NCBI GenBank assembly: GCA_040755395.1
Contig: JBFMAX010000001.1
Location: 310,001 to 374,000, forward strand
From: Nitrospirota bacterium
GTDB taxonomy: Bacteria > Nitrospirota > Nitrospiria > Nitrospirales > Nitrospiraceae
Length of the DNA stretch: 64,000 nt
Direction: 5' to 3'
Positions within the stretch are counted from its first letter, which is position 1. Every line of letters starts with the position of its first letter. Positions 36,493 through 49,536 of the stretch are shown here, in pieces. Under the pieces are notes generated by a model. That model did not search any database and was not told where the DNA came from. It worked only from the letters and a program-made list of their open reading frames with translations. Made by a program: the position numbers and the translations under genes.

Positions 36493-36547
36493 GCAGAGGC
36501 GGTCGCGCGGCGCAACCGTCGTAACCGGCAATCGAAGGAGTGTCACC

Positions 36548-36802
36548 ATGGTTTGGAGACGATCGCTTCAACACAAGCGCGCGAAACCGAAACGGAAGGT
36601 CAAACTGGAACGCTTGGGCCTGGGAGCATTGGAACAGCCGGTTGTTCCGATGGATGAGATCCGGCGACAAGGCCTGCTGCTGGCGGGTCGCACTCTCGGA
36701 CTCAGCGTCCGACCCCAACACCCGGTCCCAAGCGGGCCCGCGGTTCGCTCGGCCAGGCCGGCTGCAGCCACTCGACGCGGCCGGCGGGACTCCGCACAGT
36801 AA
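36548..36802 (+). CDS. small basic hypothetical protein
   Basis: 84 aa from ATG at 36548 with GAAGGAG upstream. It begins with 'WRRSLQHKRAKPKRKVKLERLGL', then an amphipathic stretch, then a Pro/Ala/Arg-rich tail. High positive charge suggests nucleic-acid or ribosome contact, but no motif confirms this. It follows the gene at 36154 by 55 bp on the same strand. Confidence 0.5.
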   Translation: MVWRRSLQHKRAKPKRKVKLERLGLGALEQPVVPMDEIRRQGLLLAGRTLGLSVRPQHPVPSGPAVRSARPAAATRRGRRDSAQ

Positions 36803-36831
36803 GAGCCGTGACTTGTTGTTGGTGTTTCAGG

Positions 36832-36860
36832 TTGCTTTTCGCTCTAGCTCCTGTTACAGT
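36832..36860 (+). promoter_or_regulatory. candidate promoter of the RRM protein gene
   Basis: TTGCTT (36832-36837), a 17-bp spacer and TACAGT (36855-36860). It implies a 5' UTR of nearly 190 nt; long leaders are common for cold-inducible RNA-binding proteins. Confidence 0.45.
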
Positions 36861-37058
36861 GTGCCATGGTTCATCGCGTCGGGCCTCGTGGTGAATCGGT
36901 CAAACGGAAGGCCCGTCACTGATGTTGTTTTGTCCGGGAATCTGATCGGAAGCCAGACCCAAGCCGCTCCATCGTTCGCGTCTTTGGCCCGTTCCTTCCT
37001 ATCGACTCATTGTTCTCGCGTCTAAGACATCATCACTACCATAAAAGGAGGAACCCCC

Positions 37059-37376
37059 ATGGGTTCGAAGTTGTATGTCGGTGGCTTGCCCTATGCGGCT
37101 ACCGAGCCGCAGTTGCATGACTTGTTCGCCCAGCACGGCACCGTCGAGTCGGCGCGCGTGATTACGGACAAGTTCACGGGACAGTCACGGGGTTTCGGCT
37201 TCGTTGAAATGTCCACCGCAGAGGAGGCTAATGCCGCGATCGCCGCGTTGAACGGTTCGCAGCTCGACGGCCGCACGTTGACGGTGAACGAAGCGAAGCC
37301 GCAAGAGTCGCGTTCAGGCGGCGGCCGTTTCAGCAGTGGCCGTAGCGGCGAGCACCGCAACCGCAACCGCTTCTAA
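37059..37376 (+). CDS. RRM-domain RNA-binding protein
   Basis: 105 aa. A single RRM with RNP2 'KLYVGGLPY' (residues 4-12) and RNP1 'RGFGFVEM' (44-51), followed by a Gly/Arg/Ser-rich tail. This matches the Rbp family of bacterial single-RRM proteins, which are often cold-induced and bind mRNA. AAAAGGAGG precedes the ATG at ideal spacing. A stem-loop terminator follows. Monocistronic, with a long 5' leader. Confidence 0.92.
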   Translation: MGSKLYVGGLPYAATEPQLHDLFAQHGTVESARVITDKFTGQSRGFGFVEMSTAEEANAAIAALNGSQLDGRTLTVNEAKPQESRSGGGRFSSGRSGEHRNRNRF

Positions 37377-37405
37377 CGGCGCAGGCCGAGAAGCACAGTG
37401 AATAG

Positions 37406-37433
37406 GAGGGGCGTCTCGACCGAGACGCCCCTC
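37406..37433 (+). terminator. stem-loop after the RRM gene
   Basis: GAGGGGCGTCTCG and its complement CGAGACGCCCCTC flank a two-base centre. No U-run follows, so termination efficiency is uncertain. Confidence 0.6.
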
Positions 37434-37467
37434 TGCACAATCACTTCTGTATGTAAGGGCTATCCTG

Positions 37468-38328
37468 ATGACATCTCTTTCGCTCTCCACTAAACCGCTT
37501 CCTCGACCCTGGAATTATGGCACCGCGTTTCTGTTCAGCCTCGTCAGCCTCGGCGCTCTGATCGGGGTTCCCGTCTTCGCGTATCTCTACGACTACACGT
37601 GGGTGGATTGGACCATGTTCGGACTCCTGTATGTCGTCACCGGTTTGGGTATTACGGTCGGGTACCACCGCATGGCGGCTCACCGCAGCTTCGACTGCCC
37701 CAATTGGGTCAAGGCCGGGCTGTTGATCGCCGGCGGTTGGGCGCTGGAAAACTCCGCGCTGAAGTGGGCGTCGGACCATATTCGCCACCATGCCCATTGC
37801 GACCGCGAGGCGGATCCGTACAACGCCCAGCGAGGATTTTGGTACAGTCACTGCGGGTGGTTGTTCTTCGACGATCCCTATGCGGACGACAAGTATGCGT
37901 CCCGCTTGCGGCAGGATCGGGTCGTCCTGTGGCAACACAGGTACTACCTACCCATCGTGCTCTCCGGCCTCGCCCTCACGTTCTTGGTCGGGTTTCTCTA
38001 CAACGGATGGGTCGGCGGAATGGGATGCTTCCTGTTAGCGGGCGTGGGGCGGACGTTCGCGGTGCTGAACTCCACGTTTTGCATCAATTCCATCTGCCAT
38101 CTCTGGGGCAACCAGCCACACGGCCAGTCCGACTCGAGCCGGGATAGTTGGTGGATCTCCCTGCTGACTTTCGGCGAGGGCTACCACAACTACCACCACA
38201 CGTATCAAAGCGACTACCGGAACGGCCCCCGCTGGTATAACTTCGATCCTTCAAAGTGGGTGATCTTCACGCTCTCTCTCCTCGGCCTAGCCACCTCGTT
38301 ACGCAGGGCCTCTGCCGAAACCAACTAA
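37468..38328 (+). CDS. fatty-acid (acyl-CoA/acyl-lipid) delta-9-type desaturase
   Basis: 286 aa. Three diiron histidine boxes: HRMAAH (67-72), HIRHHAH (104-110) and GEGYHNYHH (near 235). Two pairs of hydrophobic helices (about 20-62 and 155-200) put the active site on the cytoplasmic face. It inserts a double bond into saturated acyl chains, adjusting membrane fluidity. Its position next to the RRM protein gene makes a cold-response link plausible, though this is an inference. Confidence 0.9.
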   Translation: MTSLSLSTKPLPRPWNYGTAFLFSLVSLGALIGVPVFAYLYDYTWVDWTMFGLLYVVTGLGITVGYHRMAAHRSFDCPNWVKAGLLIAGGWALENSALKWASDHIRHHAHCDREADPYNAQRGFWYSHCGWLFFDDPYADDKYASRLRQDRVVLWQHRYYLPIVLSGLALTFLVGFLYNGWVGGMGCFLLAGVGRTFAVLNSTFCINSICHLWGNQPHGQSDSSRDSWWISLLTFGEGYHNYHHTYQSDYRNGPRWYNFDPSKWVIFTLSLLGLATSLRRASAETN

Positions 38329-38330
38329 AA

Positions 38331-38364
38331 AGCGGCCATCTTGAGGAAACCGGCCGCTGGTTTT
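38331..38364 (+). terminator. probable terminator of the desaturase gene
   Basis: AGCGGCC (38331-38337) pairs with GGCCGCT (38352-38358), followed by GGTTTT and preceded by AAAA. Confidence 0.5.
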
Positions 38365-38737
38365 CCCCGGCCCGTGCGACGTCGGTCGAATCGCCTGGCG
38401 GTTCCATATCCGCCATCAGCACCACGCCGGTCACCACCGTCACTGACCGCCAAGGCGATGGCGCTGGATTCGAGTCCCTGGCGGCTCACCAAACCGACGC
38501 GCGACGTCGATAGCTCACAACATCTCAGCACCTCCCACCGCCTTATCCTGCCGTTCGCAGGACGATTGCTGGGGCGATGGGTAGGCGTGTTCTTGTCTCG
38601 TGACGGCCTCTCGGTGCTTCTGATCCGGTATCCGGTAAGCTTCCGCAAGTCTGCGACCCTGGAAAATCATTGAACTATCACAGACCTCCAAATATAGGTT
38701 GACTTCACCACGCTGCCCGCGTAGGGTGAACACATGA

Positions 38738-38842
38738 CGTATTGAGCTACGCTGACTTTCCTATCCTCGCGCTTCCCGCTTCCTCCCTGCGCGACTGATT
38801 CCCCGGTCTCCGCCGCTTCTACGCCAGAGTCTCCCTGTCGTT
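38738..38842 (+). promoter_or_regulatory. conserved leader element, copy 3
   Basis: TATTGAGCTACGCTGAC, TTTCCTATCCTCGCGC, CTGCGCGACTGATTCCCCGG, TCTCCGCCGCTTCTACGCC and AGAGTCTC. Best-preserved copy. A possible promoter, TTGACT (38699-38704), 17 bp, TAGGGT, lies just upstream. The remaining 38365-38700 sequence contains no gene I can support. Confidence 0.6.
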
Positions 38843-38952
38843 GTCTTTCGTTGCCGTCAACGGAGAACGACCTGGACGCCGATCACATGATCGATAGCCG
38901 GGAAAAGAGCGGTTTTGACATTCGGACAGATCCGTGGAAGGGGGTGAACGCG

Positions 38953-39039
38953 ATGTATCCGATTCTCGCGCTGCTGGGAATCATGTTGCTGACTTGGGGG
39001 GCGGCCGTGTGGGCTACCTTTCGGGAGGAGAAGCCATAA
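38953..39039 (+). CDS. 28-aa single-TM peptide
   Basis: MYPILALLGIMLLTWGAAVW is one hydrophobic helix, then a short charged tail (ATFREEKP). GGGGTGA lies upstream at workable spacing. Its plan (one helix plus polar tail) resembles tiny subunits of respiratory complexes, but no partner is nearby. It follows leader copy 3 and precedes another one-TM protein. Confidence 0.5.
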   Translation: MYPILALLGIMLLTWGAAVWATFREEKP

Positions 39040-39160
39040 GCCGGGGAGCCGCCTCTCAGGAGGGCACGGTCAACCGGCCGGGTGCATCGAGGCATGCGGA
39101 CGCGTCGTACGCGCAGGGGCGTCCTTCTTCCGCAGTCGAATGACAACACAGAGGAGCATC

Positions 39161-39301
39161 ATGAGTGCCGTCCAGACCTTTGTTCAGCAGGTCACGCACT
39201 CTCCGTTCACCGCCGCCGCGCTGTTCTTTGGCGGGGCTGTGGTCGCGGCGACGCTGTACACCTACGTGTATGACTACAAGGAGTGGCCCGACCGGGACTA
39301 G
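39161..39301 (+). CDS. 46-aa single-TM membrane protein
   Basis: Read directly from the sequence: ATG at 39161 with GAGGAGCATC upstream, stop TAG at 39301. Residues 16-36 form a hydrophobic helix (FTAAALFFGGAVVAATLYTYV) followed by a charged tail (YDYKEWPDRD). It lies 121 bp after the 28-aa peptide and 81 bp before the next gene, all in the same direction. No family recognised. Confidence 0.6.
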   Translation: MSAVQTFVQQVTHSPFTAAALFFGGAVVAATLYTYVYDYKEWPDRD

Positions 39302-39382
39302 GCGCCCTCGTCTCCTCCCCGGCCGCGGAGACGTTGGCGGAGGATCCGGCGCAGAAGACATCACCAGACACAGGAGGGCAAG

Positions 39383-39913
39383 ATGAACCAGGAGCCATTC
39401 ACAGCGAGTTGGGACCAACATCAAGGATACGAAGAGGAACAACCTACGCCCTGGATGGTTCAAGGGCACCAGACCATAAGAACGAGGAGAGCGGTCGAAT
39501 CCCACAGCGCCGCAGCGAAGCCGGAAGGCGGAGACGGAGGACAAGTTATGAGATGCATCGTCATCAATAAGAGCGACGGGGACTTTTGCCTGAGCCACAA
39601 GGCGTTTCTGCGACTGCGAGACCTGGGGCAACGAGAGGCGCTCAAGGAACCAGACTTTGGTACATATCGGCTCGCAAGCGCGACTCTACAGGAGCCGACT
39701 TTGAATCGGTATGGCACACTCATCCCCCGGGATGATCAGAAACTCGTGAGGGTGGTGGTGGAACTCGGCGCTCAGGCAAACGGTCACGGTGTCGACCTGA
39801 AGATTGTAGAAATTCCGAACGATGTCAAATGGGAGATCGAGAAGGTTGGCGGCACGGAACATGTGAGCGAAGCGCATCTGACCGAAGCGCATCGCACTTG
39901 GCACTGCGCATGA
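39383..39913 (+). CDS. hypothetical protein of the 'HRTW'-ending family
   Basis: 176 aa from ATG at 39383 (AGGAGGGCAAG upstream), or 121 aa from ATG at 39548 (CGGAGGACAAGTT upstream). Both starts have strong ribosome-binding sites in the same frame. The conserved part begins at the inner start: 'MRCIVINKSDGDFCLSHKAFLRLR', 'RDDQKLVRVVVELGAQANGHGVDLKIVEIPNDVKWEIEKVGGTEHV', ending 'AHRTWHC'. I recognise this layout as a widespread uncharacterised small protein of phages and bacteria, with no known function. The outer N-terminus is polar and disordered-looking. Confidence 0.65.
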   Translation: MNQEPFTASWDQHQGYEEEQPTPWMVQGHQTIRTRRAVESHSAAAKPEGGDGGQVMRCIVINKSDGDFCLSHKAFLRLRDLGQREALKEPDFGTYRLASATLQEPTLNRYGTLIPRDDQKLVRVVVELGAQANGHGVDLKIVEIPNDVKWEIEKVGGTEHVSEAHLTEAHRTWHCA

Positions 39914-39941
39914 ACGTCACAGTGAACGATCTCGCCGCTGA

Positions 39942-40160
39942 TTGTGCCCCTTCCCTAAAGAAAAGGAATTGGTCCTGGCACAAGACGCTCTGGACCGCGA
40001 GGAGTTGGGGGAATGTTCTTCACGATGCCGGCAAATCTGCCCAGCTTATAAGGATCAAGATCTCGGAGGTGCACACTGTCTCTTTCACGCGGGTCATTTC
40101 TTGAAGGCCACCGGACTCTTGCGTGCCTCGAATCACAACGATACAATCAGCGCCGGGTAG
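39942..40160 (+). CDS. possible small cysteine-containing protein
   Basis: 72 aa from GTG, no clear ribosome-binding site. The sequence has a protein-like helix (EKELVLAQDALDREELGE) then C-S-S-R-C-R-Q-I-C and C-L-F-H, a possible metal site. It ends 9 bp before the Crp/Fnr gene. It may be real and co-transcribed with the regulator, or a chance frame. Confidence 0.35.
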   Translation: MCPFPKEKELVLAQDALDREELGECSSRCRQICPAYKDQDLGGAHCLFHAGHFLKATGLLRASNHNDTISAG

Positions 40161-40169
40161 GACGCGTTG

Positions 40170-40823
40170 ATGGCACCCAAACACCCCAGGCCGTTCAATC
40201 CTAAAACCTTCCTCACCAGAGTCGGCAGCGGCAAAACGATCCTGCAGTGTCGGAAGAAACAGATTATCTTTTCGCAAGGTGACGCGGCGGATTCCGTGTT
40301 TTATATCCAGGAGGGCAAGGTCAAACTCACCGCCGTCTCCCAGCAAGGCAAAGAAGCCGTGATCGCCTTGCTGGAGCGCGGAAACTTTTTTGGGGAACCC
40401 TGCCTCGTTGGACAGCCTGTTCGCCTGACGACCGCGACCGCACTGGAAACGTCCACGATCGTTCGTATTGAAAAACCCGCCATGATCCGCATGCTCCACG
40501 ACGAGCCCGCATTCTCAGAGCTATTCATGTCCTACCTGCTTTCCCACAACATTCGAATTCAAGAGGACTTGGTCGATCAGCTCTTCAATTCAGCCGAGAA
40601 GCGGTTGGCGCGGGTGTTGCTGTTGCTGGCGCATTTCGGGAAAGAAGGCAAGCCGGAGCCGGTCATCGCGAAGATCAGCCAGGAAACGCTGGCCGAAATG
40701 ATCGGTACCACGCGGTCACGAGTCAGCTTCTTCATGAACAAGTTCAGGAAGCTGGGCTTCATCGACTATAACGGTGGATTGCACGTGCACAGCTCCCTCC
40801 TCAATATCGTCTTGCACGACTAG
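40170..40823 (+). CDS. Crp/Fnr-family transcriptional regulator
   Basis: 217 aa from ATG at 40170. Effector (cNMP-like) beta-roll at residues 20-120 ('IIFSQGDAADSVFYIQEGKVKLTAVSQQGKEAVIALLERGNFFGEPCL'), a dimerisation helix, then an HTH_Crp at about 150-200 ('ISQETLAEMIGTTRSRVSFFMNKFRKLGFIDY'). It lacks the N-terminal cysteine set of FNR, so it is not an obvious oxygen sensor, and its ligand is unknown. A 20-bp dyad 65 bp downstream (40888) could be a target. This is a plausible local regulator of the surrounding small-gene region. Confidence 0.9.
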   Translation: MAPKHPRPFNPKTFLTRVGSGKTILQCRKKQIIFSQGDAADSVFYIQEGKVKLTAVSQQGKEAVIALLERGNFFGEPCLVGQPVRLTTATALETSTIVRIEKPAMIRMLHDEPAFSELFMSYLLSHNIRIQEDLVDQLFNSAEKRLARVLLLLAHFGKEGKPEPVIAKISQETLAEMIGTTRSRVSFFMNKFRKLGFIDYNGGLHVHSSLLNIVLHD

Positions 40824-40887
40824 CATTCTCTCTTAGACATCGTTGACTTCGAGCAGCGCGAGGGCCGGTGCCTTCCTCCTCATTTCC

Positions 40888-40907
40888 TCAAAACTGAGCA
40901 ATTTTGA
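40888..40907. promoter_or_regulatory. 20-bp dyad, site 1
   Basis: TCAAAACTGAGCAATTTTGA: perfect 6-bp arms around CTGAGCAA. Site 2 at 42984-43003 keeps the centre and changes both arms together. It lies 61 bp upstream of the lipoprotein gene at 40969. Confidence 0.55.
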
Positions 40908-40968
40908 ACAGACCGAAATCTGTCTTGTCGGATAGATTTACCTTCAATACCGACACGATTGGTCTTTC

Positions 40969-41718
40969 ATGCCTAACCATAGGCTACGGGTTCACCATAC
41001 CGCCGTCTTAGGGCTTCTGCTTCACTCGGCCTTTGGCGTGCAAGGCTGCTTGGCCATTACGTGGCTGGGCGCGGTCGGGATCGATATGACCCGGACCAGT
41101 GACATTGAGTTCCGGTCATTCGAGAACTCGTGGGCGGTCGCACCGCAAGAGCGGCACCACCTGGGATTGGTGAAGAGCGTCGCGGTGATGCCGTTCGTCG
41201 GAGATCCGGCAATGGCTGAGCGGTGGATTGCTGTCCTTCAACACATGACCGATCTTCGCGTGGTAAGCCTGTCCGGCGCGACTCGGCAGGGGCATCTGAA
41301 TGTAAACCCCGACTTTTCCCACAGGTCGGCCGACCGCGGGCAGATAGAGCTGGCGAAACGGATCAGCGCGGAGTTTCAGGTGGATTGCGTGCTGTTCGGG
41401 AGTGTGGCCGATCACGAGGCGCAGAGGCGTCTTGCGGGATTAAAGGAGAGTTCCCTGCGGAGGCTCTACCTGCATCTGATAAGCGCAGAAGGGAGCCTCT
41501 TGTGGAAGACCGAGCTCCCTTACACGATTGTGAAGGGGGCCAAGGACCTCGATGAGGAAATGGTGACACACGCTCTCCTGACTCGTGTGCTGGCCCAGGC
41601 CAACGAGGTTGGGTTAGCGGAATTGGGAGCGGGACACCAGCAGGCTGCATCACGATTCTTGCGCGACGGGTCCGACCATCAACAGACACAGCTTTCACCG
41701 GCGGTCGAGCGTCCTTGA
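40969..41718 (+). CDS. putative lipoprotein (CsgG/GNA1162-like)
   Basis: 249 aa. Hydrophobic N-terminus (VLGLLLHSAFGVQGC) with a lipobox-like V-Q-G-C at 24-27. The mature part has 'GLVKSVAVMPFVGDP' near 65, the strand typical of CsgG/GNA1162-type outer-membrane lipoproteins, then 'GQIELAKRISAEFQVDCVLFGSVADHEAQRR' and 'LYLHLISAEGSLLWKTELPYTIVKGAKDLDEEMV'. Such proteins help secretion or build periplasmic assemblies. The family placement is an inference from these blocks. Confidence 0.65.
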   Translation: MPNHRLRVHHTAVLGLLLHSAFGVQGCLAITWLGAVGIDMTRTSDIEFRSFENSWAVAPQERHHLGLVKSVAVMPFVGDPAMAERWIAVLQHMTDLRVVSLSGATRQGHLNVNPDFSHRSADRGQIELAKRISAEFQVDCVLFGSVADHEAQRRLAGLKESSLRRLYLHLISAEGSLLWKTELPYTIVKGAKDLDEEMVTHALLTRVLAQANEVGLAELGAGHQQAASRFLRDGSDHQQTQLSPAVERP

Positions 41719-41916
41719 CGGTCATGGCACTTCTTCACAATCGAGCACGTTTGACCGGATTGCAATTTGGCTTCAAGCGCGAACGTTACGACGTGGTCTC
41801 CGAAAACCGAGCCGCCGGCAATTTGCGGAATCTGCGCCCTTACAGACAGCAGTCACGTAGGGAGATCGCTGAGTGCAAGGTCCCCTTACGTTATGACCAG
41901 CCTGTGGAAGCCTTCA

Positions 41917-42423
41917 ATGATGAACGACGAAGCACGGCAAGGAACTCACCATGAACATCACTTGCGGTATGGACAGCGATTGTCCTCCCCTGCGCCGGGC
42001 ACGATGCGCCCGTCTCACCGTTCGAGTCCGGGCATTCTGGTCTTTTCGCACAGGCGGCACTTGCTGCACGTGAATCGCGCGGCTTTGGACCTGCTGGGCC
42101 GCCTCGAACAGACGGAGACCGGACTAGCCACTCTGACGTTCACGAGGCTGGTCAGCGAGCTTCGCGTTCAAATCCAAGATACCCTCGACAACCGCAGAGA
42201 CGCCAACGTCCGGGATCTCGTTGAATTGAAGCGCGTCATAGTGGAATCGGGGCGAAAGATCCTCCTTCGTGGATTCGGGCTGCCTGATCGGAATTCAAGC
42301 AACCTCTCGCGAGTTATCATTGTCCTCGAGGAGGTCAGTCTCCAGCAGGCGCAAGCGAAGGTTCAATCCGCTCATGGGGAGGGCGCCGCCCAGGAGCATG
42401 TCCCCGTGAACAGGTATAAATGA
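41917..42423 (+). CDS. PAS-like fragment, possibly truncated regulator
   Basis: 168 aa from ATG at 41917 (other ATGs at 41920 and 42004). The recognisable part begins 'SPGILVFSHRRHLLHVNRAALDLLGRLEQ', a PAS-like opening, followed by a helical linker and 'SRVIIVLEEVSLQQAQAKVQSA'. The protein then ends in a short polar tail. In related regulators, as I recall them, a LuxR-type HTH follows this linker; it is absent here. A second good ribosome-binding site with ATG at 41951 sits in another frame, suggesting an old frameshift. It may be a degraded gene. Confidence 0.5.
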   Translation: MMNDEARQGTHHEHHLRYGQRLSSPAPGTMRPSHRSSPGILVFSHRRHLLHVNRAALDLLGRLEQTETGLATLTFTRLVSELRVQIQDTLDNRRDANVRDLVELKRVIVESGRKILLRGFGLPDRNSSNLSRVIIVLEEVSLQQAQAKVQSAHGEGAAQEHVPVNRYK

Positions 42424-42473
42424 AACGCATTTCCAAAGTAGTAATTCATGGCCACCAAGTGGCCACCCTGGAG

Positions 42474-42618
42474 CATGAAAATGCGGGTGGCACCGACCTG
42501 GGCGCCTGTCCGCGCGCAGCGGGGTCCCTACACCGGGCGGGGTGCGAGCTTGCACCCGTTGCAATCGGAAAAGAGCAACGGGTACCCGACTGGTCGGTGA
42601 CAGGACCCGCATTTTCAT
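42474..42618. repeat. structured intergenic repeat family C, copy 1
   Basis: Outer arms ATGAAAATGCGGGT (42474-42487) and ACCCGCATTTTCAT (42605-42618) are exactly complementary. Inner stems: CACCGACC/GGTCGGTG, and CCCGTTGC/GCAACGGG around an A-rich loop. The core CCCTACACCGGGCGGGGTGC is identical in copy 2 at 61967-62063. The 42424-43148 gap otherwise shows only the dyad at 42984 and no gene I can support. Confidence 0.65.
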
Positions 42619-42983
42619 ACCAGTCCTAATAAGGCTCTTTGATGTCTTGCTGATCATCAGACTAGATGGAACACGCGAGAAGCGCCATTCCGTCGAACAC
42701 TATCCCCGGTCTGCCGAACAGGCAGACCATCGAGCATCGCTTTTTGTGCAACTCGGAAGGCTATGAACAGTGCGGAGGGGCCGGGCCGAGTGCTTTTCCC
42801 GCCAACGGCCTCCGCGGACAACCGTCTCTCACACGCCCCTCCGCCACTTCATCGAGGAAGCTGAACGATCAACCGTCCGTGCCATGAGGATCAGCCTTGC
42901 GATTGCCCTGCACGACCGGTTTCCCCTTCAGTGTCATGGGGTTAGGTCGAGCAGTCAGATCGCGTTGGTCCGGCCAAAATTCT

Positions 42984-43003
42984 TCAGAACTGAGCAATTC
43001 TGA
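42984..43003. promoter_or_regulatory. 20-bp dyad, site 2
   Basis: TCAGAACTGAGCAATTCTGA: the same centre as site 1 at 40888, with both arms changed in a matching way (A to G on the left, T to C on the right). It lies 145 bp upstream of the zinc-ribbon gene at 43149. Confidence 0.55.
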
Positions 43004-43148
43004 CCAGCTACGTTCCCTCGAGCAGCCTAGTATAGTTCTACGCAGGATGACTCTGTTCTACGCTGATTTGATCATTGCAGAAGTCGAGATTCGACCGAAG
43101 TAGGAACGTCTAACGTCCGCTGCACAGGACAGAACGGGAGAAGACGTC

Positions 43149-43391
43149 ATGGCATGCGCACGATGCGGCGGGTTGGTGGTCGAGAACTGGTGGGACCTCG
43201 TCGGCGATGCCAGTCAGAAGTGGCTCCAGGGAACGAGGTGCGTGAACTGCGGGGCCATCGATGACCTTGTGATCCTGGCGAATCGTCTACGGCCGCATCC
43301 GGCTCGAATTATCGCTCCCCGCGGCGCAACCGGCATGGGAAAGGCGCCTGTCCCTTCGTTTCGCGGAAGGCCCAATAAAGTCCCTTTCTGA
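43149..43391 (+). CDS. small zinc-ribbon protein
   Basis: 80 aa from ATG at 43149 (CGGGAGAAGACGTC upstream). Knuckles C3-A-R-C6 and C31-V-N-C34 with 'GLVVENWWDL' between them form a two-CxxC zinc ribbon like that at 1366-1593. The C-terminal half is basic. It is 23 bp upstream of an SPFH gene and probably co-transcribed with it. Role unknown. Confidence 0.65.
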   Translation: MACARCGGLVVENWWDLVGDASQKWLQGTRCVNCGAIDDLVILANRLRPHPARIIAPRGATGMGKAPVPSFRGRPNKVPF

Positions 43392-43414
43392 AGCGAAGTA
43401 ACCTGGAGGTCGGC

Positions 43415-44296
43415 ATGTACCTTCCGTTGGCGGTCGGACTCGCAACGCTCGTCGTGCTCTTGCTCATGACGATCAAGATCGTCCCGGAGTATCAGCGCAT
43501 TGTCATTCTCCGGCTCGGCAAAGTCCTCCCAAGGGCGATGGGGCCGGGCCTGGTGCTGATCATTCCGTTGATCGATCGGCCCATTCGCGTAGACCTTCGA
43601 GAAACGTATCTCATCGTCCCCCACCAGACCTGCATTACGAAAGACAACGCCCCGATTTCCATCGACTTCCTGATCTATTCGAAAGTCCTGGATCCCATCG
43701 CCAGCGTGGTGCAGGTCCAGGACTTTGCGGGGGCCTCTCAAGGGATCGCCACGACGACGCTCCGGGCCGTCGTGGGCGATATTCCGCTCGATGATGTGTT
43801 GGCCAAGCGCGAACAGATCAACCATCTGTTGCAGGCCAGAATGGACGAAGTCACGCAACGCTGGGGAGTGAAAATTACAACCGTCGAGATCCGGGAGATC
43901 ACACCCCCCAAAGAGGTTCAGGAGGCCATGACCCGCCAGATGTCGGCCGAGCGCAGCCGGCGGGCCACGGTGACCGAGGCGGAAGGGACGAAACAGGCGG
44001 CCGTGACCGTGGCTGAAGGCGAAAAGCAGTCGGTGATTCTAAAAGCCGAAGGGGATAAACAGGCCGCGATCCTGCGCGCAGAAGGCTTCGCTCTCGTCCT
44101 CGGCAAGATTTTCGACGTGGCCAAGGGGATCGATTCCAAAACCATGACGTTGCAATATCTGGACACGTTAAAGGTCATGGGCGCCGGCCCCTCCACGACA
44201 TTCATCGTTCCAATGGAGCTCAGCTCGTTCCTGGCAGGCGCCTTGAAAGATGGAAAGAGAGCGATCAGCAACAGTGACGCCGTCGTCGGATCATGA
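43415..44296 (+). CDS. SPFH/stomatin-like membrane protein 1
   Basis: 293 aa. One N-terminal TM helix (LPLAVGLATLVVLLLMTI), then the SPFH/band-7 domain: 'VPEYQRIVILRLGKVLPRAMGPGLVLIIPLID', 'LRETYLIVPHQTCITKDNAPISIDFLIYSKVLDP' and 'TTTLRAVVGDIPLDDVLAKREQINHLLQ'. Next comes a long Glu/Ala/Lys coiled coil (residues about 175-235) with imperfect 'AEGxKQAAI' repeats. Slipins and stomatins form membrane rings and often regulate proteases or membrane microdomains. A NfeD partner is usual but is not seen here. A second SPFH protein is encoded at 48088. Confidence 0.9.
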   Translation: MYLPLAVGLATLVVLLLMTIKIVPEYQRIVILRLGKVLPRAMGPGLVLIIPLIDRPIRVDLRETYLIVPHQTCITKDNAPISIDFLIYSKVLDPIASVVQVQDFAGASQGIATTTLRAVVGDIPLDDVLAKREQINHLLQARMDEVTQRWGVKITTVEIREITPPKEVQEAMTRQMSAERSRRATVTEAEGTKQAAVTVAEGEKQSVILKAEGDKQAAILRAEGFALVLGKIFDVAKGIDSKTMTLQYLDTLKVMGAGPSTTFIVPMELSSFLAGALKDGKRAISNSDAVVGS

Positions 44297-44405
44297 TTTC
44301 ACAGCATCCGGATCAGTTTGTCTTCGATCTCATGACCCTGCCGCGGTCGGCGTCCTGACGACCGAGGAGCCGCGATATCGGAGGTTTCAGAACGGAGGCC
44401 TGGTC

Positions 44406-44705
44406 ATGAAACAGGAGTCCACCCTTACTGCTCGGATTCTCGAAGCGGTGCACAAGAGGCTTGGTTGTCGGATCGAAGAGTTGGTCTCTCTTTTCCCGGA
44501 CCACACGTGGAATCAGGTCTTCCGCGAAGTGAATCGTCTGAGCCGGAACCGCCAATTGCGTCTGATGTTAGATGGTCGAGGGGTTTTCACTGTCAGGAGA
44601 CCTGACGAGGTCATGGCTTTGCAATCTTTAGCCGGCTTGCAGGGCACACAGTTGAAGCTTACTTCATGCCGTCGCAAGAGATTCACGACGTTTCAGCCGC
44701 GCTGA
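44406..44705 (+). CDS. small winged-helix-like protein (paralogue of 15-362)
   Basis: 99 aa from ATG at 44406. 'LTARILEAVHKRLGCRIEELVSLFPDHTWNQVFREVNRLSRNRQLRLMLDGRGVFTV' corresponds nearly position by position to the N-terminal part of the protein at 15-362. The C-terminal tail is basic and unrelated. The fold looks like a small HTH with a wing. It immediately precedes leader element copy 4, just as its paralogue lies near copy 1. Confidence 0.7.
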   Translation: MKQESTLTARILEAVHKRLGCRIEELVSLFPDHTWNQVFREVNRLSRNRQLRLMLDGRGVFTVRRPDEVMALQSLAGLQGTQLKLTSCRRKRFTTFQPR

Positions 44706-44800
44706 CTGCCTCATCCCTCGCGCGGCCCGATGACGCTGTCGCGCGACCGATTTCCCGGTCTCCGTCGCCTGCTACGCCGGACTGTCTCTGAAGCACGCCG
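44699..44800 (+). promoter_or_regulatory. conserved leader element, copy 4
   Basis: CGCTGACTGCCTCATCCCTCG, GTCGCGCGACCGATTTCCCGG, TCTCCGTCGCCTGCTACGCC and GGACTGTCTCTG. Upstream of two small secreted-protein genes. Confidence 0.55.
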
Positions 44801-44937
44801 TTCTTGGGGGTACACACCAAGAGCGCCGTCTCTTGTTTCCGTCAGTCTCGCTCGGACAGGGAAGACTTCCCGGTGACGTATCGGGATCGCCCCTGACCCA
44901 GCGCGTCGTCGTGTTCGCAACGAAAGGAGTGCAGGCC

Positions 44938-45267
44938 ATGAAACTCTATACGATGGTGTTCACAGGACTCGTGGTAGCGGGGAGTGTTTCCCTTGCCTTC
45001 GCAAATCCGGCGATGCTCCCCAAACATCCCGGGTATCCCGCAGGAGGAGAGTTTGCCAACGACACGGGGCAGCAGAACCTGACGCATTCACAATCCCTTC
45101 TGGATGCCGCGGTGTCAGAGGATGCGCATACGACCCAGAAACTGGTGGACCCGAATAATGCCAGGCTGCTGAAGCCGCAGGGAGCCGGCCAACTGCCGGC
45201 AGTTGAGGGGCCCAATATCAAGATTGAGCCGCCGGTCACTGAGGCGACTCGCATGCCCAAGCCGTAG
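44938..45267 (+). CDS. small secreted hypothetical protein
   Basis: 109 aa from ATG at 44938 (GAAAGGAGTGCAGGCC upstream). Signal peptide MKLYTMVFTGLVVAGSVSLAFA, cleavage likely after residue 22. The mature protein is polar, Pro/Asn-rich and lacks cysteines (HPGYPAGGEFANDTGQQNLTHSQSLLDAAVSEDAHTTQKL). No domain recognised. Followed by another secreted protein; both lie behind leader copy 4. Confidence 0.65.
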   Translation: MKLYTMVFTGLVVAGSVSLAFANPAMLPKHPGYPAGGEFANDTGQQNLTHSQSLLDAAVSEDAHTTQKLVDPNNARLLKPQGAGQLPAVEGPNIKIEPPVTEATRMPKP

Positions 45268-45395
45268 CGTACTGTTCACGCGAGAAGGGCCCGGTGAAGC
45301 GGGTCAGTTCCCGACAAGTCCCGCGTGTCACCGGACATGTGCCTACGACGAACCGGCTCACCCCCGAGCCTTATATCCTAAGGGAGGAAAGAGCA

Positions 45396-45704
45396 ATGAC
45401 TACCTATCTGTTCATGAGGCGTACCGTTATTCTCACATCGCTCACGCTGATTGCATCGCTGTCCGCACTGGCTGCACAGCCGGGGGATCAACCTTCGCGC
45501 GGAGCTACACTTCCTGCTTCGACGGAAGCGATGAGTGCCGTGGCGGCGGGCGCGGCCGAGGACACGCTCAAAGCCTGTCTGGCCAGAATTCCCCAGGACG
45601 CCAGTATCGGTCAGCGTATGATCGCTGAAACGAGCTGCCAGCGGGAGGAGATGGACAGGAAAGTGATCCAAGCTGTGCCTAACACTGAATACGCATCTCA
45701 GTGA
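45396..45704 (+). CDS. small secreted hypothetical protein
   Basis: 102 aa from ATG at 45396, which follows AGGGAGGAAAGAGCA. The signal peptide 'TTYLFMRRTVILTSLTLIASLSALAA' resembles that of the protein at 493-999. The mature part carries two cysteines (ACLARIPQ... and ETSCQREEMD) that could form a disulfide. No family recognised. The following gap (45705-45995) contains no gene I can support. Confidence 0.65.
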   Translation: MTTYLFMRRTVILTSLTLIASLSALAAQPGDQPSRGATLPASTEAMSAVAAGAAEDTLKACLARIPQDASIGQRMIAETSCQREEMDRKVIQAVPNTEYASQ

Positions 45705-45995
45705 AAAGGAGGAGTTGGAGAGACGCGATACATCACAAACCCTGAGTCCGCGGCTTTGCCCGATCTGCGCCCATGCAATGTTGAGTGCAAAAAGAGCGGC
45801 AAGGGACAGCCAGATTTGATCGTTGAGAGGGAGTGGTCTGCAGCCTGCGCCGGCGTCACAGTGAGAAAGGAACACGTGGTGCTGGAGGCGCTCTGTAAAT
45901 TGACGTGAGCCCCGTCAGGGGGCCGTGATACGCGAGGAGAGGACGGTGGATCTTATCCGACCAGCACGGCCATATCTCGGTTCGTCGGGAGTTCA

Positions 45996-47858
45996 CAGAC
46001 GCGACGGCTCCTGTTGGTGGATCCCTAGCCCAAAAACAATCCCTACCATCTGACCGCGCCGGAACGGCGCGCGGTCTGGTTTCCGAAGCTGAGCCTGCCG
46101 GTAATCGCGGCCTACACGCCTGAGTATTGGTGTGTGGATCTCGTGGATGAAGCCGTGGAGGATGTGAATTTCGAACACCCCTGCGATCTCGTCGGGTTGT
46201 CGATCATGACCTGCTACGACCCGCGGGCGCATGAAATTGCGACGGAGTTCAGGAAGCGAGGCAAACCGGTCGTCATGGGCGGCGTTCACCCGACCTATTG
46301 TCCCGACGAGGCTCTGCAGTATGCCGATGCCGTCGTTTGCGGCGAGGCGGAAGATCTGTGGCCCGAACTCATCGCCGACTTCGAGGCGGGGGCCATGAAG
46401 CGACGGTATCAGATGGAATCGTTTCCGACGCTGGAACAGTATAAGAGCCCGCGTGCGGAACTGCTGAGCCCCGATGCCTATATGACCAGGCAATGCAGTT
46501 TCACCACCCGAGGGTGTCATTTCGATTGCGAGTTCTGCAGTGTCTCTCCCTTCAACGGGAAGACCACCAGACGCCGGCCGGTTCAAGAAGTCGTCAAGGA
46601 ATTGACCCGGATCAAACAATGGATTCGCGGCGAATTGGTGGAACGGATACGCCATGACTCGCTCTGGCACGCCTTCATCACGGGGGTTCGCATTCGCCTC
46701 GGCATTGAAGACGGCGCCATCTTCGCCTTCGTCGATGACTTGCACAACAGCAACCGGGCTTACTGCCGGGAACTTTGGACGGCGCTCAAGCCGCTGAAGA
46801 TCAAGTGGGGATGCCAAGCCACGATGTTCCTGGGCGATGATCCGGAAATGGTCAAGCTGGCGGCGGAGAGCGGCTGCGTGTCTGTCTTCGTGGGGATGGA
46901 ATCGCTGAATGAAGACTGCCTGGAGGAAACCCATAAGCCGTTTAACCGGGTGCAGAAGTTTTCGCAAGAGATCAAGATGTTTCATGACCATGGCATCATG
47001 GTGAACCCGGGGATTGTCTTCGGCTTCGATAACGACGATGAATCGGTCTTTGAACGTGCCGTGGAGTTCCTGGTCAAGAATCAGGTGGAGTTGGCCTATT
47101 TCAATGTGCTCACTCCACTCCCTGGCACGGCCCTCTATGAACGCTACACTCGCGCCGGCCGCATCTTCGACAAGGACTGGGCGAAGTATGACGGCAAACA
47201 TGTGGTGTTCTATCCAAGCCGGATGACACCGGAGCAACTCCAGGAGGGCTTTTTCTGTGCCAACCATCGGTTCTATTCGCTGCCGTCGATCTGGCGCCGG
47301 TTGGTGGGCACCAAACAGCGATTCATCCCCCGTTTGTCCATGAACCGGCAGTTTCGCAAGTTAGTCAAGCGGTCCTGTCCGCAAGGGACCCTCTCGCCGG
47401 TCGCCGGGGCGCTCAAGACCCTGGAAGCTCAGTTGCCGACGCTGGAGACGGATCAACTCATCCCCAATGCGCTCCATGCCCTCAGACAGAAGCTGGGTCA
47501 GACCGCCGCACCCGCGCACGGATTGTGGTTGACGATGAGAGCCAAGCGGCATGACCAGTTTGCCGCGCTGTTTGTCGACCTTGAAGGGACACTCGATCGA
47601 CTGAATGCGCAAGAACTGCTGAAACGAATCAGCGAGGCGGCGGAGAAAGCCCGGATCGACATCATCGTGAACTTTGAACACCTGAAACACGCGACGCCCG
47701 AGGCGCTCAGAGCCTTGCTGGACGGTGAGGCGTTGAAAGCCGTGGTGCCCTATGCCAAGGTGCGCTACCGGAAGTTCAAGGCGGCGTTTGAGAACGCGGT
47801 GCAGGAGCGCTCCATCGATCGACTTGAATGGCTGAGCCAGGATGTACAAGACACATAA
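45996..47858 (+). pseudogene. B12-binding radical SAM gene with lost start and in-frame TAG
   Basis: The open part (46134-47858, 574 aa from GTG) has the end of a cobalamin-binding domain ('CDLVGLSIMTC', 'KPVVMGGVHPTYCPDEAL'), the radical SAM motif C128-H-F-D-C132-E-F-C135 and a C-terminal region resembling a STAS-type fold ('RHDQFAALFVDLEGTLDRLNAQELLKRISEAAEKARIDIIVNFEHLKHA'). Upstream, the same frame keeps coding-like sequence (RRLLLVDP, stop, PKNNPYHLTAPERRAVWFPKLSLPVIAAYTPEYWCVDLV), but TAG at 46026-46028 interrupts it and ACG stands where ATG is expected (45996). The gene is probably decaying, unless translated from an internal GTG without a ribosome-binding site. Confidence 0.65.
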
Positions 47859-48087
47859 TATCCCCGTGCGCGACCGTCGCCGCTTCCTAAAAGCCGGTCG
47901 TTCGAGTGGAAGCGGCCAGGTGCGGGCGAGGCACCGGGGAACGGGGTTCGTACCGTAAGGCTGTCCAACCAGGAGAGAAGACCAGACGCAACAGGGCCCG
48001 GGCGCAGGGGAAGCGGTACGGAGACCCGTGTGGCGATGGCCTGCTCCGTCAACGCTTCGGCCTGAACCTGAATAGGAGGCGCCTCGC

Positions 48088-48870
48088 ATGGAGTTGGCGT
48101 TCAGTCTCCTCATCCTGCTGGTTTTGCTGGCTGTCGTCTTGGCGATGGGCTTCAAGGTGCTGCGCGAATATGAACGAGCAGTGATCTTTCGGTTTGGAAG
48201 AGTGGCGCGAGGCCTCGTGGGCGGCCATGGCCCCGGCATCGTGGTCATCATGCCGCTTGTCGATAAGCTCTTACGCGTGAGCCTGCGGACCGTCGCCATG
48301 GACGTGCCTCCACAAGACGTCATTACACGGGATAACGTGTCCGTGAAGGTGAACGCCGTCATTTATTTCCGTGTCGTCGATCAGCAGCGAGCGATTGTCC
48401 AGGTTGAGGACTATCTGTATGCGACGTCGATGATGGCCCAGACTACGCTCCGCAGCGTGCTCGGCCAGAGTCAGCTCGATGATCTGCTGGCCAAGCGGGA
48501 AGAGATCAACGTCCACCTCCAGCGCATCCTTGACCAACAGACAGAACCCTGGGGCATTAAGGTTTCGGCGGTCGAAGTAAAAAACGTGGACCTTCCCCAA
48601 GAGATGCAGCGCGTGATCGCCAAGCAGGCCGAAGCGGAACGCGAGCGGCGATCCAAAGTCATTCACGCCGAGGGCGAATTCCAGGCCGCACAACGCCTGG
48701 CGGACGCGGCCACGGTCATGAGCCGGCATCCGATGGCTCTCCAACTGCGGTACCTGCAGACCTTGGTGGAGATCGCCGCTGAAAAGAATTCGACCACGAT
48801 TTTCCCGATCCCCATCGACATGCTCACGCCGTTCGTCCAAGGTCTGCAAAAGCGCGAGGCAGGAGAGTAA
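48088..48870 (+). CDS. SPFH/slipin-family membrane protein 2
   Basis: 260 aa from ATG at 48088 (AATAGGAGGCGCCTCGC upstream). N-terminal TM helix ([18 protein letters not shown]), then a canonical slipin core: '[71 protein letters not shown]' and '[31 protein letters not shown]', ending in '[24 protein letters not shown]'. Closer to classic stomatin/slipin than the protein at 43415. Membrane-domain scaffold or protease regulator; no NfeD or HflKC neighbour. The 228-bp gap before it has no gene. Confidence 0.92.
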
Positions 48871-49536
48871 AAGGAAAATTCTGGGCGAATGACGCGGCAC
48901 GCAACAAATTGCACGACCACATCGCTCGATCCCGGCAATTGGCCGCTTGGGGGTGACGTGTGAGTCTCGCTCGGCCTATGGACAAAGAAAACAGGCTCTT
49001 CAGGAAATCGTGTGGGTCTTTCTTTTTCCCTCTCCCTTGAGGGGAGAGGGGAGGGTGAGGGTGAACGCCGGGGTTGGTGGACAAGACTGTGATGCCCATG
49101 GAGGCCCCCGATGTTTCTGAACAGGTCACGGCCCCATGCCGATCTCCCCCTCACCCGCACCCTCGCCCCCGCAAAGCGGGGGCGAGGGATGTCCTGGAGT
49201 TCTATACCCACACAAGATCCGGAAGAGCCAGTATTCTTTTCCACCGCAAAGTCAGAGCGTCGGGGGAGAGGTTGGACGAACCTGCCAGGCGCAATCGCGC
49301 GGATTCACCCGTTGCAACGAGGAGCGACAGGTACCCGGCTCCGCGCTTGCCGAGCAGATGCGGTCCGCGAAGCGGACGGCGAGCGCTGTCCGAAGCTGCG
49401 TTCATGCAACGCACAGGACGCAGCAAGTTGCGCAGCCGAGCGGGGTACCCGTTGCTCCTCTTCATGCAACGGGTCTTGGAGGCTTAGCGCGGTCGAGCCG
49501 GAGCGCTGAGCAAGGCAGGTTCGGCCAACCTCTCCC
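48871..49536. repeat. repeat-rich intergenic region
   Basis: Contains two C/G-rich palindromes, CCCTCTCCC...GGGAGAGGG (49028-49050) and CCCTCGCCCCCGC-AAA-GCGGGGGCGAGGG (49160-49188), and repeat family B copy 2 (about 49380-49505: GCTGTCCGAAGCTGCGTTC, GCAGCAAGTTGCGCAGCCGAG, GGAGGCTTAGCGCGGTCGAG). Open frames here cross the repeats and are not credible genes. Confidence 0.6.

Follow-up and report, generated by a model that had tools for sequence, protein, structure and literature searches.

Probable recent inactivation of a duplicate gene for a B12-binding radical SAM enzyme in a Nitrospirota genome

Among solved structures, the best sequence and fold matches for the enzyme family considered here are AprD4 (PDB 6fd2), MgmA (PDB 9ccb) and TsrM (PDB 6wte), all of them distant, with 13-18% identity to the family over the structural alignment. 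Matches to BchE and the other named NCBIfam models fell far below the cut-offs, and a literature search revealed no paper evidently about the gene, an absence that does not prove that none exists. Recently formed bacterial pseudogenes, as described in PMC13345370, are likewise broken, with ribosome-binding sites and downstream frames not yet eroded; that account concerns genome-wide decay in endosymbionts, whereas here a single redundant copy in a 4.1 Mb genome is affected. The tssM1 gene of Citrobacter rodentium is also apparently interrupted and, according to PMC4256274, is rescued by transcriptional slippage on a run of 11 A. The shift described below has no such run, and a second stop would remain.

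The gene was found in a window of 64,000 nucleotides (positions 310,001 to 374,000 of contig JBFMAX010000001.1, assembly GCA_040755395.1) from a Nitrospirota bacterium with a genome of 4.11 Mb in 74 contigs. Its remaining open frame (Table 1) matches the Pfam models Radical_SAM (52.1 bits, cut-off 29.5) and B12-binding (46.4 bits, cut-off 32.1), the latter at profile positions 41-120 of 121 only. The N-terminal B12-binding domain is incomplete in this frame, and its strand 1 is located before the in-frame TAG. In the structure modelled for the family, with L037 as first sequence, strand 1 corresponds to residues 12-17 and ends just before the Tyr that aligns with the TAG, and GTG 46134 falls in strand 2; the model is only moderate (mean pLDDT 67.9), was used solely to place strand 1 and was mapped onto the window by us. 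The C-terminal region of a core copy (L105, 9951-11843) is STAS-like, with a fold match to 1vc1 and a weak Pfam match in L041.

Table 1. Features at the 5' end and in the body of the window gene. Duplex energies were computed with an assumed 16S tail; random places gave a 5% quantile of -7.4 and a median of -2.9.
Feature	Position	Strand	Basis or remark
Shine-Dalgarno-like GAGGAGAGG before the ancestral start	45934..45942	+	duplex energy -8.7 kcal/mol
GTG start homologous to the ATG of intact copies	45946..45948	+	VDLIRPAR, against MELIRPAR in the own paralogue and MNLIQPVR in the second copy of G052
Reading from GTG 45946: 35 codons in a shifted frame, ending at TGA 46051	45946..46053	+	translation
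Net +2 frameshift	45972..45973	+	ATAT in the poorly conserved linker; alignment A1
ACG taken earlier for a mutated start (there given as 45996)	45999..46001	+	ordinary Thr codon
In-frame TAG	46026..46028	+	position of the Tyr present in all homologues
Frame left open after the TAG (609 codons + TAA), with the larger part of the B12-binding domain, the radical SAM domain and the C-terminal region	46029..47858	+	Pfam
First in-frame GTG after the TAG; mechanical ORF start	46134..46136	+	Shine-Dalgarno sequence absent (-2.2; background median -2.9)
Intact iron-sulphur CxxxCxxC triad	46515..46538	+	translation GCHFDCEFC; residues invariant in alignment A2

The TAG is in frame with the open frame that ends at TAA 47856-47858. 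Upstream of it this frame reads ...VGSSQTRRLLLVDP, so that RRLLLVDP precedes the stop and PKNNPYHLTAPERR comes after it, and between the preceding stop and the motif the frame contains no ATG, GTG or TTG. Tyr occupies the TAG column in all 72 aligned homologues having a letter there. Both flanks of the TAG align codon for codon with the intact paralogue of the same genome and with an intact second copy elsewhere, and the observation is therefore more than chance. An alignment of the window copy with these two genes (L002 and L041, respectively) revealed a net +2 frameshift in the linker between GTG 45946 and the LLLVDPYP motif; its listed position is the aligner's placement, and the exact site varies by aligner. 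No long homopolymer is present at this site. Since the homologous start GTG 45946 lies in another frame, the disabling lesions of the window copy, as read from the DNA, are the net +2 frameshift and the amber codon replacing Tyr. Both are located within the first 83 of 1913 bases, for which the probability is about 0.002 with two random lesions.

The sequence-only reading of this stretch had reported the TAG, its two flanking motifs and 574 uninterrupted codons, and our analysis agrees on all three, the 574 codons being counted from GTG 46134 and 609 from just after the TAG. It had also placed an ACG at 45996, where an ATG start was expected, and had assumed that the TAG replaced a Lys codon (AAG). 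Position 45996 is CAG, and the in-frame ACG nearby is ruled out as a mutated start because relatives start further upstream; Lys is ruled out by the invariant Tyr. The proposal of two independent single-base lesions thus keeps its number and its TAG, while the ACG is no lesion and the second one is the frameshift, which had been missed. The comparison with orthologues that the same reading had suggested confirms that the TAG disrupts the homologous frame; it corrects the residue and places the start upstream of the ACG.

GTG 45946 is in the +1 frame and lies behind a good ribosome-binding site. The replacement of ATG by GTG at this start is not disabling. The start codons of relatives, chosen mechanically, are mostly located some 10-27 codons before the LLLVDPYP motif, and many of these proteins begin with M-x-L-I-x-P. 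A promoter scan gave 0 sites, with 0.8 expected.

Homologues were collected from 99 related genomes and by a scan of the GTDB contig collection. They are many, most with 54-83% identity, and have LLLVDPYPRNNPYH-like N-termini in common. The alignment comprises 73 sequences (98 found, 79 after removal of duplicates, 6 partial ones dropped). In the host genome, an intact copy 83% identical to the window copy is located on contig C6 (G000:C6:12017-13840) between argH and lysA, with argD, argF, argG, dapA and dapB nearby. When this neighbourhood was compared with 17 neighbourhoods of relatives, most of its genes had matches in 12-17 of them. The paralogue has the same domains, iron-sulphur triad and length as the window copy, but it is intact in the conserved arg/lys cluster, whereas the window copy lies elsewhere and is broken at its start. 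The radical SAM gene has the argH-lysA location in many Nitrospirota, yet it was found in only 37 of 175 genomes of the family (E 1e-100). A survey of stops in the homologues flagged a TGA in G077; a shared amber codon in G010 and G016 was ruled out, the flagged stops being their C-terminal TAGs. In L089 (JACDDF010000043.1) the homologous frame is broken before query residue 69, likely by an error, the coverage of this contig being about 1-fold by its name.

Two full-length copies were found only in the host genome and G052 among the 175 family genomes; G213 has two partial matches on different contigs. Like the window gene, the second copy of G052 (G052:C59, MAG HEB_FP_1_bin.25; L019/L041/L135) is an extra copy outside the arg/lys cluster, but it is intact and 78% identical to the window copy. 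Two of its neighbours match window ORFs at 40969-41718 (55%) and 44250-44705 (62% over 68 residues). Among the window neighbours at 30-62 kb, only an RRM gene matches in the 18 homologue neighbourhoods compared, and in L107 alone. The window copy shares three residues with the second copy of G052 that are found in no other ingroup sequence, and none with its own paralogue. In tree tests, neither a within-genome duplication of the C6 copy (p-AU 0.38) nor a grouping with the G052 copy (p-AU 0.48) was rejected. The neighbours and the three unique residues disfavour the within-genome duplication. The window copy is an accessory one, with the intact second copy of G052 and its partly common neighbours as the nearest counterpart.

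The stretch at 36500-49000 of the window is accessory and includes second copies or relatives of core genes. An RRM protein at 37059 is 78% identical to one in G000:C1 near 652 kb, and a slipin-like SPFH protein at 48088 is 81% identical to G000:C1:657477. To this set also belong a further SPFH protein at 43415, a fatty acid desaturase at 37468 and a Crp-like regulator at 40167. In addition, 38718-39426 (88%) and 39567-39875 (75%) are identical at these levels to G000:C1 around 307.3-308.6 kb on the other strand; the ORFs of both segments have no Pfam matches.

Selection on the window copy was assessed with a purpose-written codon model of 599 codons in 8 sequences, hand-picked from the 73 aligned; with the tree fixed by hand and synonymous change near saturation, the estimates are a rough bound. 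The window branch had an omega of 0.048, as against 0.047 for the rest of the tree (lnL difference 0.002), and relaxed selection was not found with these 8 sequences. When a neutral tail was added to the window branch, whose whole length is about 3.4-3.8 changes per codon, the best fit was at zero. More than about 0.04-0.05 neutral changes per codon was disfavoured, with lnL dropping by 1.4 at 0.04 and by 2.7 at 0.06. By our own estimate, 0.04 changes per codon correspond to about 24 substitutions in the remaining frame, about one of them a stop, which is compatible with the observation. Since omega equals that of the intact copies and the neutral tail is close to zero, the gene was constrained until lately and any loss must be very recent, in agreement with the earlier suggestion of a recent event. 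There is also a hint that the gene may have been under slightly weaker constraint already when it was whole: at 223 columns that do not vary in the other sequences the window copy carries 4 changes, the joint highest of 69, and its end branch is twice as long as that of the paralogue (0.20 against 0.095).

Based on the above results, we suggest, with a probability of roughly three in four, that at the window locus a second gene for the B12-binding radical SAM enzyme was inactivated very recently, the core copy being intact. The accessory copy would have been a working gene under purifying selection until lately. It would then have gained, in an order that we infer, the net +2 frameshift in the N-terminal linker and the amber codon at the invariant Tyr. 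A ribosome initiating at GTG 45946 would translate 35 codons before terminating at 46053; thus, the full-length enzyme is not expected, and a functional product is presumably absent. The loss would be tolerated since the core copy remains, and the paralogue presumably covers the function of the window copy. Two features do not fit this scheme easily. Random decay does not predict that both lesions should fall so close to the 5' end, and the downstream frame shows neither relaxation nor a further lesion. With regard to the latter, a very recent loss would leave no trace in the selection record.

Alternatively, initiation at an internal codon (GTG 46134 or one farther downstream, e.g., ATG 46275) may still yield an enzyme that is shortened at the N-terminus and useful; we regard this as unlikely, although an internal start had been raised already by the sequence-only reading. 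Both lesions lie upstream of the candidate starts, the downstream frame is clean and constrained, and ATG 46275 has a Shine-Dalgarno-like site (-8.1 kcal/mol); 11 candidates were tried, however, and the site is about 13 bases away from this codon. GTG 46134 lacks a Shine-Dalgarno sequence, in contrast to the ancestral start, and a product initiated there is predicted to lack strand 1 of the modelled B12 domain as well as its first helices. Furthermore, a comparison of the 35 codons that separate the TAG from GTG 46134 gave 14 synonymous and 4 nonsynonymous codon differences to the paralogue and 17 and 4, respectively, to the G052 copy, much as downstream. These codons are as constrained as the rest, which indicates that they were translated until recently. 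We consider it similarly unlikely that the accessory paralogue was remodelled rather than lost; in this case the two lesions would silence the N-terminus alone, and selection would maintain, next to the full-length relative, a shortened enzyme that starts internally and is devoid of strand 1 of the B12 domain. The clustering is the sole observation favouring a tolerated truncation of the N-terminus, and it hints at one.

Recent inactivation also has to be weighed against readings in which the gene still yields a complete protein. One or both lesions may be errors of assembly or sequencing, the gene being intact in the cell; full constraint with just two nearby lesions fits a local error, and the source is a 74-contig assembly. 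We nevertheless find this rather improbable, as the two lesions differ in kind, one being a 2-base shift away from any long homopolymer and the other a substitution. In addition, 944 kb of the host genome were compared with 599 reference ORFs, taken from 800 kb of the complete genome of a relative; 92 passed the filters of at least 60% identity and at least 80% coverage, and the 507 without a passing match were left out. Of these 92 conserved genes, 91 were intact, and the single flagged one, in which the stop stands 8 codons after the N-terminal end of the alignment, is best explained by an over-extended reference ORF. With no true disruption among them, random error appears to be rare and two errors in one gene unlikely. 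Decoding of the whole gene by recoding, i.e., a programmed or corrective frameshift followed by amber readthrough, would also agree with constraint on both flanks of the TAG until the recent past, but we consider it hardly credible. It needs two separate events within 55 bases, the shift has no long homopolymer, and no homologue carries the TAG. In 13 of 95 conserved genes the stop is a TAG, located as expected, and this codon is therefore an ordinary terminator in this genome. No CUA anticodon was found among the ARAGORN calls (56, some repeated from overlapping loci) over the loci holding all 43 tRNA genes detected by the Rfam tRNA model in the whole genome; thus, no tRNA reading UAG was identified and amber suppression was ruled out.

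If recently inactivated, the window gene is a clear case of a duplicate caught just after the event, with an intact copy in the genome and lesions that are necessarily recent. As a phenomenon it would be ordinary gene decay, and no wider principle rests on it. An annotation would list the mechanical ORF of 574 codons, starting at GTG 46134, as a normal gene despite the out-of-frame ancestral start. An antisense ORF of 424 codons (45993-47267, minus strand) opposite the radical SAM gene is probably a shadow of its codon bias. Elsewhere in the window, a short dispersed repeat at 42470-42620 recurs over 70-141 bases with 83-92% identity at five other places in the 944 kb of the genome examined.
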